Shown here: in pieces, positions 2,582-27,685 of the stretch | Numbering within the stretch: the stretch's first letter is position 1 | Layout: every line of letters begins with the position of its first letter | From: Lachnospiraceae bacterium | GTDB lineage: Bacteria; Bacillota; Clostridia; Lachnospirales; Lachnospiraceae | DNA length: 57,239 nucleotides | Direction of reading: 5' to 3' | Assembly (NCBI GenBank): GCA_017620375.1 | Contig: JAFZQN010000005.1 | Span: forward strand, 1-57,239 | Program-made: the position numbers and the translations under genes | The notes under the pieces: model-generated | Seen by the model: only the letters and a program-made list of their open reading frames with translations | Told to the model about the DNA's origin: nothing | Databases searched by the model: none

Positions 2582-2635
2582 AAAAAAGCGTCTTGTATTT
2601 CCGGATTTATTCCACATACAAGACACCCTTGCCTC
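2582..2635 (-). promoter_or_regulatory. glnN leader unit 2: ANTAR hexaloop overlapping an intrinsic terminator
   Basis: In the transcript sense, the stem GAGGC/GTCTT closes the hexaloop AAGGGT (bases 2625-2630; A at 1, G at 4). The right strand of that stem is also part of the 5' arm (2616-2626) of a terminator whose other arm is at 2588-2598, followed by six T. The hairpin and the terminator cannot form together, which is the expected logic of ANTAR antitermination. Confidence 0.85.
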
Positions 2636-2650
2636 ACAGTATTATTATAT

Positions 2651-2709
2651 GTCATTCTGAACGAAGTGAAGAATCTTAAGCTCCTTCGCCGATCGCTCAG
2701 GATGAAAAC
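2651..2709. repeat. GTCATTCTGA-type palindromic intergenic repeat inside the glnN leader
   Basis: The block begins GTCATTCTGAACGAAGTGAA and ends with a partly complementary CGCTCAGGATGA. It matches the common bacterial dispersed palindrome of the form GTCATTCTGAGCGAAG…, recognised from memory. It lies between the two attenuator units of glnN and folds into its own long hairpin, lengthening the gap between the two hexaloops to about 112 bases, against 56-65 in the other three tandem leaders. Confidence 0.75.
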
Positions 2710-2754
2710 AGAAAAGAGGTCTCTGAACTTACGCTCAAAGACCTCATTGCCTCT
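2705..2754 (-). promoter_or_regulatory. glnN leader unit 1: ANTAR hexaloop overlapping an intrinsic terminator
   Basis: In the transcript sense, the stem AGAGGC/GTCTTT closes the loop AATGAG (2743-2748). The overlapping terminator pairs 2734-2745 with 2716-2727 and ends in TTTTCTGTTTT. The hexaloop stem starts nine bases after the -10 box, so it is the first structure the polymerase makes. Confidence 0.85.
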
Positions 2755-2763
2755 ATGTGACGT

Positions 2764-2792
2764 ATTTTATACCTGTTTATATGATTTGTCAA
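2764..2792 (-). promoter_or_regulatory. glnN promoter
   Basis: TTGACA (2787-2792), 17-bp spacer, TAAAAT (2764-2769) on the minus strand, in the short gap after asnB. It is a near-consensus sigma-A promoter, so control is expected in the leader rather than at initiation. Confidence 0.85.
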
Positions 2793-2814
2793 CAGTTTTT
2801 TTAGATTTTTCACC

Positions 2815-24432: not shown

Positions 24433-25920
24433 TCAGTCGCTGTTTGCGACAGCTTTTGTTACCTGCTTTAAAGGCTGTTCAAATCTGTCTTTTCCGGAAT
24501 CGTCGGGGATGTCTGTCGGATAAGCACCGGTAAAGCAGGCATCGCAGTATCCCTTGCCGCCGGTGAGCTCACCGAGTCTTTCTACCGGAAAGTATCCCAA
24601 CGAATCAGCACCTATAATCTCACATATCTCCGGAATAGTATGGTGGCATGCCACCAGGTTCTTCTCCGAATCAATATCAGTGCCGTAGTAGCATGGATGT
24701 AAGAATGGCGGTGAAGATATCCTTACGTGTACTTCCTTTGCTCCGGCATCTCTTAGGAGCTTTACCACACGTCCCATCGTGGTGCCTCTAACTATCGAGT
24801 CATCCACCAATACCACTCTTTTATCTCTTACCACTTCATCAAGTACTGCCAGTTTTATCTTAACTCCGTCCACTCTCGTTTTCTTGGTGGGAGATATGAA
24901 GGTACGACCTATATATTTGTTTTTGATAAATCCCATCCTGTAGGGTATCCCGGACTGTCCGGAGAATCCTAACGCCGCATCTAGTCCCGAATCGGGAGCA
25001 CCGATGACTATGTCGGCATCTGCAGGATGCTCCTCAGCTAAAATCTCTCCTGCCCTAACTCTTGAAGCATGTACGGAAACACCGTCTATGATCGAATCAG
25101 GACGTGCAAAATATATGTACTCGAATACGCAGAGCTTTTTGTTCTCTTTGTACTTTTCATGGATGTTGGACATAGCCGGATCGTCGTTTAACGATTCGAT
25201 ATGCTTGGTCTGCAGGGACTTAACCTGTCCGTCGTGGAAAACCAGTATCTCACCCGGATTAACATCACGTATGAGCTTTGCACCAACTGCTCTTAATGCA
25301 CATGATTCGGATGCCACTATGTATACTCCGTCAGCGGTCCTGCCGTAACATAAAGGTCTAAACCCAAGCGGATCCCTTGCGCATATAAGCTTCTGCGCCG
25401 ACATAATTACAAGTGAATAGGCACCTTCAAAATACTTCATGGCCTTTTCCACTGCTTCTTCTATGGAAGCGGATCTGATCCGTTCTCTTGTGATATAGTA
25501 AGCTATGGTCTCCGTATCGCTTGTGGTATGGAAAATGGCGCCCTGCATCTCAAGCTCGGATCTGAGCTTATATGCATTTGAAAGGTTGCCGTTATGTGCC
25601 AGTGCCATCTTACCCTTTTGGTGATTGACTTCTATAGGCTGGGTGTTCGACCTGTTGGTAGCTCCTGTCGTACCGTATCGTACGTGTGCCACCGCCATGG
25701 TACCCTGGGGCATCCCCTCTAAGACTGTCTCCGAGAAAACCTCACTTACAAGTCCCAAATCCTTATGCGAGTAAAACAGTCCGTCCTTGTTTACCACTAT
25801 TCCACAGCTTTCCTGACCTCTGTGCTGAAGTGCATACAGGCCGTAGTAAGAAAGCCCTGCCACATCCGTTTCTTTATCGGAATATATTCCGAATACTCCG
25901 CATTCCTCATGTATGCTCAT
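24433..25920 (-). CDS. purF: amidophosphoribosyltransferase
   Basis: 495 residues. Cys7 in MSIHEECGVFGIY follows a very short propeptide and becomes the N-terminal nucleophile. The glutaminase domain (ALQHRGQESCGI, HNGNLSNA) precedes the phosphoribosyltransferase domain with the PRPP-binding loop VVLVDDSIVRGTT. C-terminal Cys residues (KGYCDACFTG) may belong to the Fe-S-type family. It is the first committed step of purine synthesis. It starts 12 bases after pyrG, so the genes are co-transcribed, which is unusual because purF normally sits with other pur genes. Confidence 0.96.
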   Translation of the reverse strand: MSIHEECGVFGIYSDKETDVAGLSYYGLYALQHRGQESCGIVVNKDGLFYSHKDLGLVSEVFSETVLEGMPQGTMAVAHVRYGTTGATNRSNTQPIEVNHQKGKMALAHNGNLSNAYKLRSELEMQGAIFHTTSDTETIAYYITRERIRSASIEEAVEKAMKYFEGAYSLVIMSAQKLICARDPLGFRPLCYGRTADGVYIVASESCALRAVGAKLIRDVNPGEILVFHDGQVKSLQTKHIESLNDDPAMSNIHEKYKENKKLCVFEYIYFARPDSIIDGVSVHASRVRAGEILAEEHPADADIVIGAPDSGLDAALGFSGQSGIPYRMGFIKNKYIGRTFISPTKKTRVDGVKIKLAVLDEVVRDKRVVLVDDSIVRGTTMGRVVKLLRDAGAKEVHVRISSPPFLHPCYYGTDIDSEKNLVACHHTIPEICEIIGADSLGYFPVERLGELTGGKGYCDACFTGAYPTDIPDDSGKDRFEQPLKQVTKAVANSD

Positions 25921-25932
25921 GTTATGCCTCTA

Positions 25933-27540
25933 TTATAGTTTAAGCTTCTGCTTTAATGCTGCTTCGATAAAACCTTTAAACAAAGGATGCGCTTTATTGG
26001 GACGGCTCTTAAACTCAGGATGGTACTGAACTCCGACATGGAAACTCCTGCCGGGGATCTCCGCAGTCTCTACAAGGTTGCCATCAGGTGAAAGGCCGCT
26101 TAAAACTAAGCCTGCTTCTGTTAATCTATTTCTGTAATCGTTGTTTACTTCGTAACGATGTCTGTGACGTTCGCTGATGTTCAGGCTCTCATAGCACTCT
26201 TCCATCTTTGTGCCGGGCTGTATGCAGCAAGGGTAAGCACCAAGTCGGAGTGTACCGCCCTTGTTGATCTCATTGTTCTGACCGGGCATGAAATCGATGA
26301 CTTTATTTTTGCAGTTTTCATCAAACTCACCCGAATTTGCATCTGCGATACCCACAACATTTCTGGCGTATTCTATGACCATGATCTGCATACCTAAGCA
26401 GATACCGAAGTATGGTATATTATTCTCTCTTGCGTATCTCTCCGCCTCGATCATACCTTCAATACCGCGGTTTCCGAATCCGCCGGGAAGTATGATGCCG
26501 TCAAGTCCGTACAGTTTTTCAGCCACGTTCTCACGGGTGATCTCCTCAGAATCTATCCATATGATCTCAATATGTGCATTGTGATAGAAGCCTGCATGTC
26601 GGAGTGCTTCCGCTACCGACAGATATGCATCATGTAATGCCACATATTTTCCGACCAAGCCTATATTTACACTTAAGGTCCTGGACTTAATGGTCTCTAC
26701 CATGTCAGTCCATTCGGCCAGATCAGGCTCGGGTACATCGAGTCCCAGCTCACGGCATACAACACCTGAGAAATGAGACCTTTCAAGCATAAGAGGTGCC
26801 TCATACAGGCAGGGAAGTGTAACATTTTCTATTACACAGTCCTCTTTAACATTACAGAAAAGCGCTATTTTCCTGAAGATATCGTCCTCTAACGGCTCAT
26901 CGCTCCGGAGTACTATGATATTAGGATTGATACCCATTCCCTGCAGCTCTTTAACTGAGTGCTGGGTGGGTTTTGATTTATGCTCTTCGGAAGCATGTAA
27001 GAAGGGAACAAGTGTTACATGGATAAATAAGCTGTTCTCTCTTCCGACCTCCAAAGATATCTGACGTACTGCCTCGATAAATGGCTGGGATTCGATATCA
27101 CCGATGGTACCGCCGATCTCGGTAATGACCACATCTGCATTGGTCTTTTTACCCACTCTGTATACGAATTCCTTTATCTCATTGGTAATATGAGGGATGA
27201 CCTGTACGGTCTTTCCGAGATATTCACCGGCTCTTTCCTTATTTAATACATTCCAGTATACCTTACCGGTGGTAAGGTTCGAATATTTATTTAAGTCCTC
27301 ATCTATAAAACGCTCATAATGTCCCAAGTCAAGGTCCGTCTCGGCGCCGTCCTCGGTAACATATACTTCGCCATGCTGGTAAGGGCTCATGGTACCCGGA
27401 TCGACATTTATATACGGGTCAAGCTTCTGAGCTGCCACCTTTAATCCTCTTGCCTTAAGAAGTCGTCCCAAGGAGGCTGCAGTGATACCTTTTCCAAGTC
27501 CCGATACTACACCGCCTGTCACGAAAATGTATTTTGTCAT
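25933..27540 (-). CDS. pyrG: CTP synthase (glutamine-hydrolysing)
   Basis: 535 residues, normal length. The N-terminal synthetase begins [19 protein letters not shown] with a P-loop-like motif. The C-terminal class I amidotransferase has GICLGMQ (about residue 379) and YHPEFKSRP. It converts UTP to CTP using glutamine. It is first in the operon pyrG-purF-carA-carB. The leader (27541-27650) carries one ANTAR-type hexaloop/terminator and not the GGGC-start CTP-sensing attenuator described for Bacillus pyrG. AAAGGAG precedes the ATG. Confidence 0.97.
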
Positions 27541-27599
27541 ATGAGCTCCTTTCGTATGTCGAATGCTTTAAAACAGTGTGTAATGAAGCGGTTTCTACA

Positions 27600-27645
27600 C
27601 AAAAAAAGGTGTCTCGTCCCTCAAGGAACGAAACACCTTTGCTTC
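27600..27645 (-). promoter_or_regulatory. pyrG-operon leader: single ANTAR hexaloop overlapping a terminator
   Basis: In the transcript sense, GAAGC/GTTTC closes the loop AAAGGT (27635-27640). The competing terminator is a ~14-bp stem (AGGTGTTTCGTTCC with GGGACGAGACACCT) followed by seven T. No second A1/G4 hexaloop is visible on either side. Confidence 0.82.
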
Positions 27646-27656
27646 ACTGAAAAAAT

Positions 27657-27685
27657 ATTTTACTCTTTCAAAAAATGATTGTCAA
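27657..27685 (-). promoter_or_regulatory. pyrG-operon promoter
   Basis: TTGACA (27680-27685), 17-bp spacer, TAAAAT (27657-27662). Its -35 box lies less than 20 bases beyond the end of the solute-binding protein gene. Confidence 0.85.

Follow-up and report, generated by a model that had tools for sequence, protein, structure and literature searches.

The question raised by this locus is whether the RNA hairpins in front of its glutamine-linked genes form one regulon, and how such hairpins would be read. The locus lies on contig JAFZQN010000005.1 (C87) of a Lachnospiraceae bacterium (GCA_017620375.1; assembly of 2.53 Mb, 85.9% complete), and the entire contig of 57,239 nucleotides (nt) was analysed and is called the window here. 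A first-pass annotation made from the letters alone had listed ten hairpins with six-base loops (hexaloops) before glnN, asnB, gltDB, amt, glmS and pyrG-purF-carAB and had read them as targets of an ANTAR protein encoded at the left edge. Comparative analysis supports this interpretation as an ANTAR-type glutamine regulon. The anatomy of the leaders, their conservation and covariation, the identity of the target genes and the co-occurrence with ANTAR genes are seen directly, and ANTAR antitermination through a single hexaloop, serving a wide glutamine regulon, is very probably the best explanation. As far as comparative genomics shows, the regulon is real; it appears wider in relatives, and its RNA gate simpler than the known element.

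Anatomy of the hexaloop leaders

Direct reading of the six leaders agrees with the ten listed hairpins and their loop sequences, all of which are closed by a C-G pair. The six promoters have the form TTGACA-17-TANNNT, and the first hairpin starts 7-10 nt past the -10 box when a 6-bp stem is counted, which corresponds to the 8-11 nt given earlier for a 5-bp stem. The hairpins have 4-8 bp and a loop of the type AANGNN, and in 10/10 cases the right strand contributes to the left arm of an intrinsic terminator, as predicted from the sequence. The gate is present in tandem before glnN, asnB, gltDB and amt, and once before glmS and pyrG-purF-carAB. In the following list each promoter runs through its first hexaloop and was located with a promoter-loop pattern; hairpins were identified by direct reading, by the covariance model R1 built from the ten hairpins and by a scan, and terminators by terminator prediction.

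2741..2792, minus strand: glnN promoter, TTGACA-17-TAAAAT
2737..2754, minus strand: glnN hexaloop hairpin 1, AATGAG
2710..2751, minus strand: glnN terminator 1, left arm common with hexaloop 1
2619..2636, minus strand: glnN hexaloop hairpin 2, AAGGGT
2584..2630, minus strand: glnN terminator 2
4537..4589, minus strand: asnB promoter
4533..4550, minus strand: asnB hexaloop hairpin 1, AAAGGA
4510..4544, minus strand: asnB terminator 1
4471..4488, minus strand: asnB hexaloop hairpin 2, AATGGT
4446..4479, minus strand: asnB terminator 2
12840..12889, minus strand: gltDB promoter
12836..12853, minus strand: gltD hexaloop hairpin 1, AAGGGC, A.C at the second pair
12817..12845, minus strand: gltD terminator 1
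12768..12785, minus strand: gltD hexaloop hairpin 2, AAGGGT
12748..12779, minus strand: gltD terminator 2, weakest score (22, below the stricter cut-off of 24), ends approximate
12938..12989, plus strand: amt promoter
12976..12993, plus strand: amt hexaloop hairpin 1, AAGGGC, A.C at the second pair
12985..13010, plus strand: amt terminator 1
13047..13064, plus strand: amt hexaloop hairpin 2, AAGGGC
13055..13082, plus strand: amt terminator 2, weak U run
16966..17017, minus strand: glmS promoter
16962..16979, minus strand: glmS single hexaloop hairpin, AAAGGA
16943..16972, minus strand: glmS terminator
27633..27685, minus strand: pyrG promoter
27629..27646, minus strand: pyrG single hexaloop hairpin, AAAGGT
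27605..27640, minus strand: pyrG terminator

With A.C accepted as second pair, there are 11 C[AA.G..]G hexaloops in the window that have stems of at least 4 bp; ten of them lie on terminators, and 40 dinucleotide-preserving shuffles of the window yield a mean of 5.8 such hexaloops with none on a terminator. None of 12 other loop-letter classes falls on a terminator in the real window, and a scan with Rfam finds no family reaching its gathering score at the leaders. The stems of asnB-2, gltD-2 and amt-2 have four contiguous pairs each. The divergent gltDB and amt share a 550-bp intergenic region (window 12673-13230) that contains four attenuators.

Based on ViennaRNA calculations the isolated hairpins have energies of -2.9 to -4.9 kcal/mol, and forcing the hexaloop costs 8.4-27.4 kcal/mol compared to the free fold of the leader. 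According to these calculations termination should therefore be the default state of the leaders, and formation of the hexaloop would need help.

The motif is further supported by its conservation and covariation in related and ANTAR-linked loci. TTGACA-17 promoters with a strong downstream terminator, picked regardless of the loop, carry CAA.G..G within 40 nt in 133 of 136 cases (shuffle mean 5.2), a figure that overstates generality because these loci were collected through their ANTAR or model matches. Loss of the hexaloops with retention of the terminators, the pattern against which the first-pass annotation had set its claim, is thus not what we find. A1, A2 and G4 belong to the search motif CAA.G..G, which also imposes C-G as the closing pair throughout. 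At the second pair, the 133 comprise 115 G-U, 12 A-C, three G-C, two A-U and one U-G. Of 58 distinct 18-mers from these leaders, 58, 56 and 56 can form pairs 3, 4 and 5, respectively, more than in any of 500 column shuffles, and changes on both sides number 19, 12 and 20; pair 6 forms in 47 of the 58, where the shuffle maximum is 46.

The genes of the locus, named from NCBIfam and Pfam profile matches, are as follows.

1..297, plus strand: ANTAR regulator, C-terminal 97 residues, remainder lost at the contig start (PF03861, 56.6 bits)
412..2511, minus strand: glnN, glutamine synthetase type III (GSIII_N, 277.7 bits)
2815..4398, minus strand: asnB, asparagine synthase B (NF006949, 641 bits)
6581..11137, minus strand: gltB, glutamate synthase large subunit
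11192..12673, minus strand: gltD, glutamate synthase small subunit
13230..14987, plus strand: amt, fused to a C-terminal P-II domain
15064..16881, minus strand: glmS
19875..23204, minus strand: carB
23300..24403, minus strand: carA
24433..25920, minus strand: purF
25933..27540, minus strand: pyrG, CTP synthase, heading the pyrG-purF-carAB run

The P-II domain fused to Amt is a possible local nitrogen sensor beside the regulon. Elsewhere in the window, a Clostridiales-1 RNA (RF01699, 93.1 bits; 48629-48798, plus strand) lies directly downstream of the open reading frame 47490-48626.

Extent of the regulon in the genome, the genus and Clostridia

In a genome-wide search with R1, as the first-pass annotation had proposed, the ten window hairpins rank first with 21.5-25.8 bits, being the training sequences; the next match has 17.7 bits, and nine weaker loci of the same genome lack such a terminator. 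The promoter-loop pattern, which requires no stem beyond the letters of the two top pairs, matches exactly six sites in this genome, all of them in the window. R1 matches in other genomes at L063, L069, L072, L074, L075, L077 and L078 were rejected, as no promoter or terminator was visible by eye.

The regulon is conserved in related genomes. The promoter-loop pattern matches 126 sites in 24/24 genomes of the genus, compared to four matches of the reversed-pattern control. The surrounding stretches were read for all but four sites (G001:C158, G007:C169, G015:C60 and G020:C146), and genes were assigned by the best match to reference proteins. This gives 118 unique sites, 109 with a stem of at least 4 bp, and 99 of these 109 precede glutamine or ammonium genes: amt, glmS and gdhA (13 each), glnN (10), pyrG, gltD and asnB (8 each), glnA (7), purF, guaA and carA (5 each), split gltB (3) and gltB (1). 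Here, glnA denotes a GlnA-like gene (335 bits against a cut-off of 429), and split gltB is a label of ours for a pair of genes whose matches to amidotransferase and glutamate synthase are partial and below the cut-off. The six glutamine-linked promoters of the first-pass annotation thus stand, but its scope was too narrow, as relatives add gdhA, glnA-ANTAR and, in other species, guaA. The five guaA sites, each with a promoter, belong to species other than the window's clade. Hexaloops at guaA within this clade (L079, L113 and the genome's own copy, L357) were discarded as look-alike loops; they have no visible promoter, and their terminator directly follows the upstream gene.

In the genus, leaders are single in glmS (13/13), pyrG (8/8), glnA (7/7), purF, guaA and carA (5/5 each) and gdhA (12/13), and double in amt (12/13), glnN (8/10), gltD (6/8) and asnB (4/8).

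Ten well-stemmed sites of the genus remain, two before LL-diaminopimelate aminotransferase-like genes (L261:283-1464 and L273) and eight left unassigned by the script. The latter are a split gltB whose frame was missed, a site at the end of the fetched stretch, two sites at genes for a GlnQ-like ABC ATPase, and one site each at genes for a protein that we read as CheY-like, a protein of the ATP-grasp type, an IS110 transposase and a protein with a PPDK domain. No such leader was found before the window's copy of the LL-diaminopimelate aminotransferase-like gene (18348-19547, downstream of carB). The GlnQ-like ATPase, of the polar amino-acid type and scoring under the GlnQ cut-off, lies behind a promoter-loop of the type ACAAAGGCGT in two genus members (L264:2795-3517 and L270).

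In the relative G005 the order is guaA-purA-gdhA, divergent glnA-ANTAR, then glnN, asnB, gltDB, amt, glmS and pyrG within 45 kb. In the present assembly glnA was not found, with distant glutamine synthetase (GS) matches only. Contig C74, which also carries guaA, opens within gdhA, its base 2 corresponding to query residue 145, and the window starts inside the ANTAR gene. Together with the gene order of G005, this suggests that the gdhA and glnA-ANTAR leaders of this genome were most likely lost in an assembly gap.

Beyond the genus we analysed the best 80 of 513 confirmed ANTAR loci in named records of Clostridia, which are hence close relatives. A hexaloop-terminator is present in 55 of these 80, usually at the ANTAR operon, whose first gene is glnA-like or split gltB, and at a divergent glnN, gdhA or amt leader. 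The strict promoter-loop pattern occurs in 48 of 291 Clostridia genomes. Outside the window's own genome 66 distinct sites were read from 71 matches; in 51 the stem reaches 4 bp or more, and an assigned nitrogen gene follows in 43 of these: glnN 17, split gltB 13, purF 3, glnA 3, amt 2, gdhA 2, and asnB, gltB and pyrG one each. Six of the 43 assignments depend on identities of 28-47%, lowest for a purF (28%) and an amt (31%). The other eight comprise three sites without a terminator, one contig end, and sites at purC, gatD, a DapF-like gene and a PPDK-like gene; among the 15 sites with shorter stems one was assigned (carB, 45%). As the 43 sites mostly precede glnN or the first gene of the ANTAR operon, the extension to amidotransferases is seen mainly in this genus, with purF, pyrG and asnB occasional in the sparse outside sample.

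In genome G103 a leader also precedes purC (L280:5736-6458) and a GatD-like gene (L281:1388-2125; lipid II isoglutaminyl synthase, another amidotransferase; below the cut-off). Proteins of about 850 residues with similar N-termini lie behind promoter-hexaloops in two distant genomes (L282:220-2796 and L326); the one scanned matches PPDK_N.

The ANTAR regulator and one hexaloop per terminator

The first-pass annotation had placed an ANTAR protein at the left edge, and the domain encoded there, at 1-294 and truncated by the contig start, scores well above the PF03861 gathering score of 27.3 bits. It is the unique ANTAR match in the assembly as it stands and adjoins the regulon. In relatives the glnA-ANTAR operon itself bears the promoter-hexaloop leader, and the regulator is therefore probably autoregulated. 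This link is further supported by co-occurrence in the 291 Clostridia including the present genome: 38 have both leader and ANTAR, 10 the leader only, 107 ANTAR only and 136 neither (Fisher p 7e-6, or 1.2e-5 without the present genome, with phylogeny ignored). Of the ten leader-only genomes, loci were read in eight, with G245 and G277 known from the matched letters alone. The leader set of G103 is convincing; here the contig breaks off within a leader like those of ANTAR operons. The site of G161 resembles a tRNA gene in our own reading and the six others have stems of 2-3 bp; these were set aside.

We then compared 79 relatives of the regulator with EutV. The phospho-accepting Asp of the receiver is replaced by Asn in 79/79, the acidic pair is lost, and the Pfam receiver score is under its cut-off in 6/6 relatives scanned; the relatives were retrieved by similarity to such a pseudo-receiver protein, which inflates this uniformity, and the window's own receiver lies mostly off the contig. 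In our alignment 79/79 relatives retain K149 and E160, which are contacts in EutV, as well as the plug Met172, the Met being partly fixed by the search patterns. An intact relative of 192 residues is encoded at L139:8476-9051.

The published ANTAR element consists of two hexaloops joined by a linker of 5-12 nt before one terminator, and deletion of the first hexaloop abolishes induction (Ramesh 2012, PMC3369931). The A1/G4 hexaloop, called the ANTAR signature by the first-pass annotation, is present here, but the dual arrangement is not: the leaders depart from the published element in having one hexaloop per terminator, at the 5' end of the transcript. Among the promoter-linked hairpins 132 of 146 start 8-11 nt past the -10 box, which leaves no room for an upstream second hexaloop. 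An upstream hairpin with an A1/G4 loop closed by C-G, as expected for the first hairpin (P1) of the dual element, was found at 2/223 hairpins, which is chance level (0.6-1.7 in shuffles), and one of at least 5 bp with an A1/G4 loop at 0/81 hairpins without a promoter of their own. A second C[A..G..]G hexaloop 8-50 nt downstream was found in 0/133.

As a control, the P1 scan was applied to 30 eutP loci. Seven hexaloop-terminator sites were obtained, two with an upstream A1/G4 hexaloop; both matches correspond to one place in L287 that is not C-G closed and not leader-like. The eutP leader of L286 (minus strand), beside a class-level ANTAR gene, shows by eye a 6-bp P1-like hairpin with the loop GATGAT (G1, G4), which the scan missed because the loop begins with G. 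The scan is thus weak, and the geometric argument carries the weight.

Several points weigh against antitermination by an ANTAR protein at a single hexaloop. EutV required both hairpins in vivo (PMC3369931). In the published structure an ANTAR dimer engages a single hexaloop at any moment, and isolated P1 and P2 are bound about as well as the pair (PMC8934654); according to Walshe 2022, the dimer must nonetheless contact each hexaloop in turn to prevent termination, and single sites are expected where the time limit set by the polymerase is absent (PMC8934654). Tyr164 and Arg142 of EutV are His and Ile in 79/79 relatives, and the loop Asn173/Arg175/Arg177, loss of which abolished EutV binding, has mostly become Asp/Cys/Ser or Thr, so that recognition must differ in its details from that by EutV. 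The strict pattern is absent from the 107 ANTAR-bearing Clostridia noted above. By strict criteria 25 of the best 80 ANTAR loci have no hexaloop-terminator; many, not all, of these are short-flanked, and two, L163 and L167, have full 10-kb flanks. Finally, four of the 24 genus genomes (G006, G010, G011 and G012; 81-93% complete) carry leaders with no ANTAR match, likely due to incompleteness.

We consider it unlikely that the leaders are classical dual ANTAR sites, in which tandem hairpins would together make up a motif as its P1 and P2, and single hairpins would be decayed or paired with a hidden partner. Such sites would fit the presence of two hexaloops in 4/6 window leaders, the requirement of EutV for two (PMC3369931) and a slight excess of upstream hexaloops of any letters with at least 5 bp (17/81 hairpins without a promoter of their own, against 12.0 in shuffles). 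However, 62-118 nt and a complete terminator separate the tandem loops in the window, far more than the eut linkers of 5-12 nt, and the single-gate leaders remain single across species; moreover, second hexaloops were at chance level upstream and absent downstream in the scans above.

Recognition of the hexaloops by an RNA-binding protein other than ANTAR seems less probable still. The four ANTAR-less genus genomes and the partial conservation of the EutV contact residues would be in line with another reader, but C[A..G..]G has been published as the signature of ANTAR sites, relatives carry the leader on the ANTAR operon itself, leaders and ANTAR genes co-occur over 291 genomes, and the one convincing leader set lacking ANTAR in that sample, that of G103, ends within a leader of the ANTAR-operon type. 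That the hairpin binds a metabolite directly, or serves as a passive 5' stability hairpin before a constitutive attenuator, is highly improbable: its location at the 5' end of the RNA would suit this, but a binding pocket is not plausible in a hairpin of 18 nt, no Rfam family reaches its gathering score at the leaders, the loop is near-constant while the stem covaries, and the targets are functionally coherent.

Proposed mechanism and relation to known systems

For ANTAR antitermination at a single hexaloop we infer transcription starts, termination, binding, signal and polarity as follows. Each of the six promoters would fire into a short leader whose first structure is the hexaloop hairpin. 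An unaided polymerase would then meet the much stronger terminator, which uses the right strand of the hairpin in its left arm, and stop. Binding of the hexaloop by the ANTAR protein from the glnA-ANTAR operon, once active, would keep the terminator from forming and allow expression of the operon behind it; glnN, asnB, gltD and amt would repeat this gate in tandem. A single hexaloop per terminator would suffice, unlike the dual hexaloop of EutV. Because the receiver cannot be phosphorylated, the regulator is probably set by a protein partner or ligand reporting the glutamine or ammonium state, and the co-transcribed GlnA may be the first candidate partner. The likely polarity is ON at glutamine shortage, as expected for GS, glutamate synthase (GOGAT) and Amt, and the glutamine-spending enzymes would be raised to hold flux.

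We lean towards a more specific reading, in which these leaders and their regulator represent a distinct class of ANTAR antitermination: a pseudo-receiver protein, autoregulated together with GlnA, would read one hexaloop at the 5' terminus whose second pair is G-U, and seven glutamine amidotransferases, in this genus AsnB, GOGAT, GlmS, PurF, CarA, PyrG and GuaA, would have been recruited to one glutamine-state regulon setting amide-nitrogen flow.

The leaders share with the EutV system the A1/G4 hexaloop, the C-G closing pair, the terminator overlap, an ANTAR regulator and nitrogen genes as targets (PMC3369931, PMC8934654). They differ in carrying one hexaloop per terminator at the RNA 5' end, in a regulator whose receiver is non-phosphorylatable by sequence and whose contact Tyr and Arg are His and Ile, and in the second pair, which is mostly G-U or A-C here and A-U in eutP, where the top two pairs matter (PMC3369931). 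A pseudo-receiver ANTAR protein that lacks both the acidic pair and the phospho-acceptor is found in AmiR, which is itself controlled by direct contact with AmiC (PMC8934654).

On the side of the targets, the nitR locus of C. acetobutylicum and Clo1313_2030-2036 of C. thermocellum combine an ANTAR gene with genes for glutamine synthetase and split glutamate synthase (PMC4676874), and their ANTAR proteins have been suggested to act as antiterminators of ammonia assimilation; hexaloop leaders and an amidotransferase regulon are undescribed in the accessible parts of that paper. Desulfotomaculum acetoxidans is comparable in having at least 13 attenuators at six nitrogen units in one genome (PMC3369931). 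That regulon was found with a dual-hairpin model, and the accessible text does not name nucleotide or amino-sugar amidotransferases; among the enzymes mentioned are synthases for arginine, and carAB could be one of these (PMC3369931). A literature search, covering its sources in part, found no paper linking ANTAR to the amidotransferases described here.

As the minimal ANTAR site has been redefined as one hexaloop and work on single hexaloops has been called for (Walshe 2022, PMC8934654), conserved natural single-hexaloop attenuators are a direct test set for the role of single hexaloops. The ANTAR protein is a candidate global nitrogen regulator for Clostridia, in which one post-initiation switch would join the supply of glutamine to several of its large consumers. 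If true, the synthesis of nucleotides, amino sugars and asparagine in rumen Lachnospiraceae would be coupled to the nitrogen supply, and one regulon would steer amide nitrogen into nucleotides, wall sugars and amino acids.

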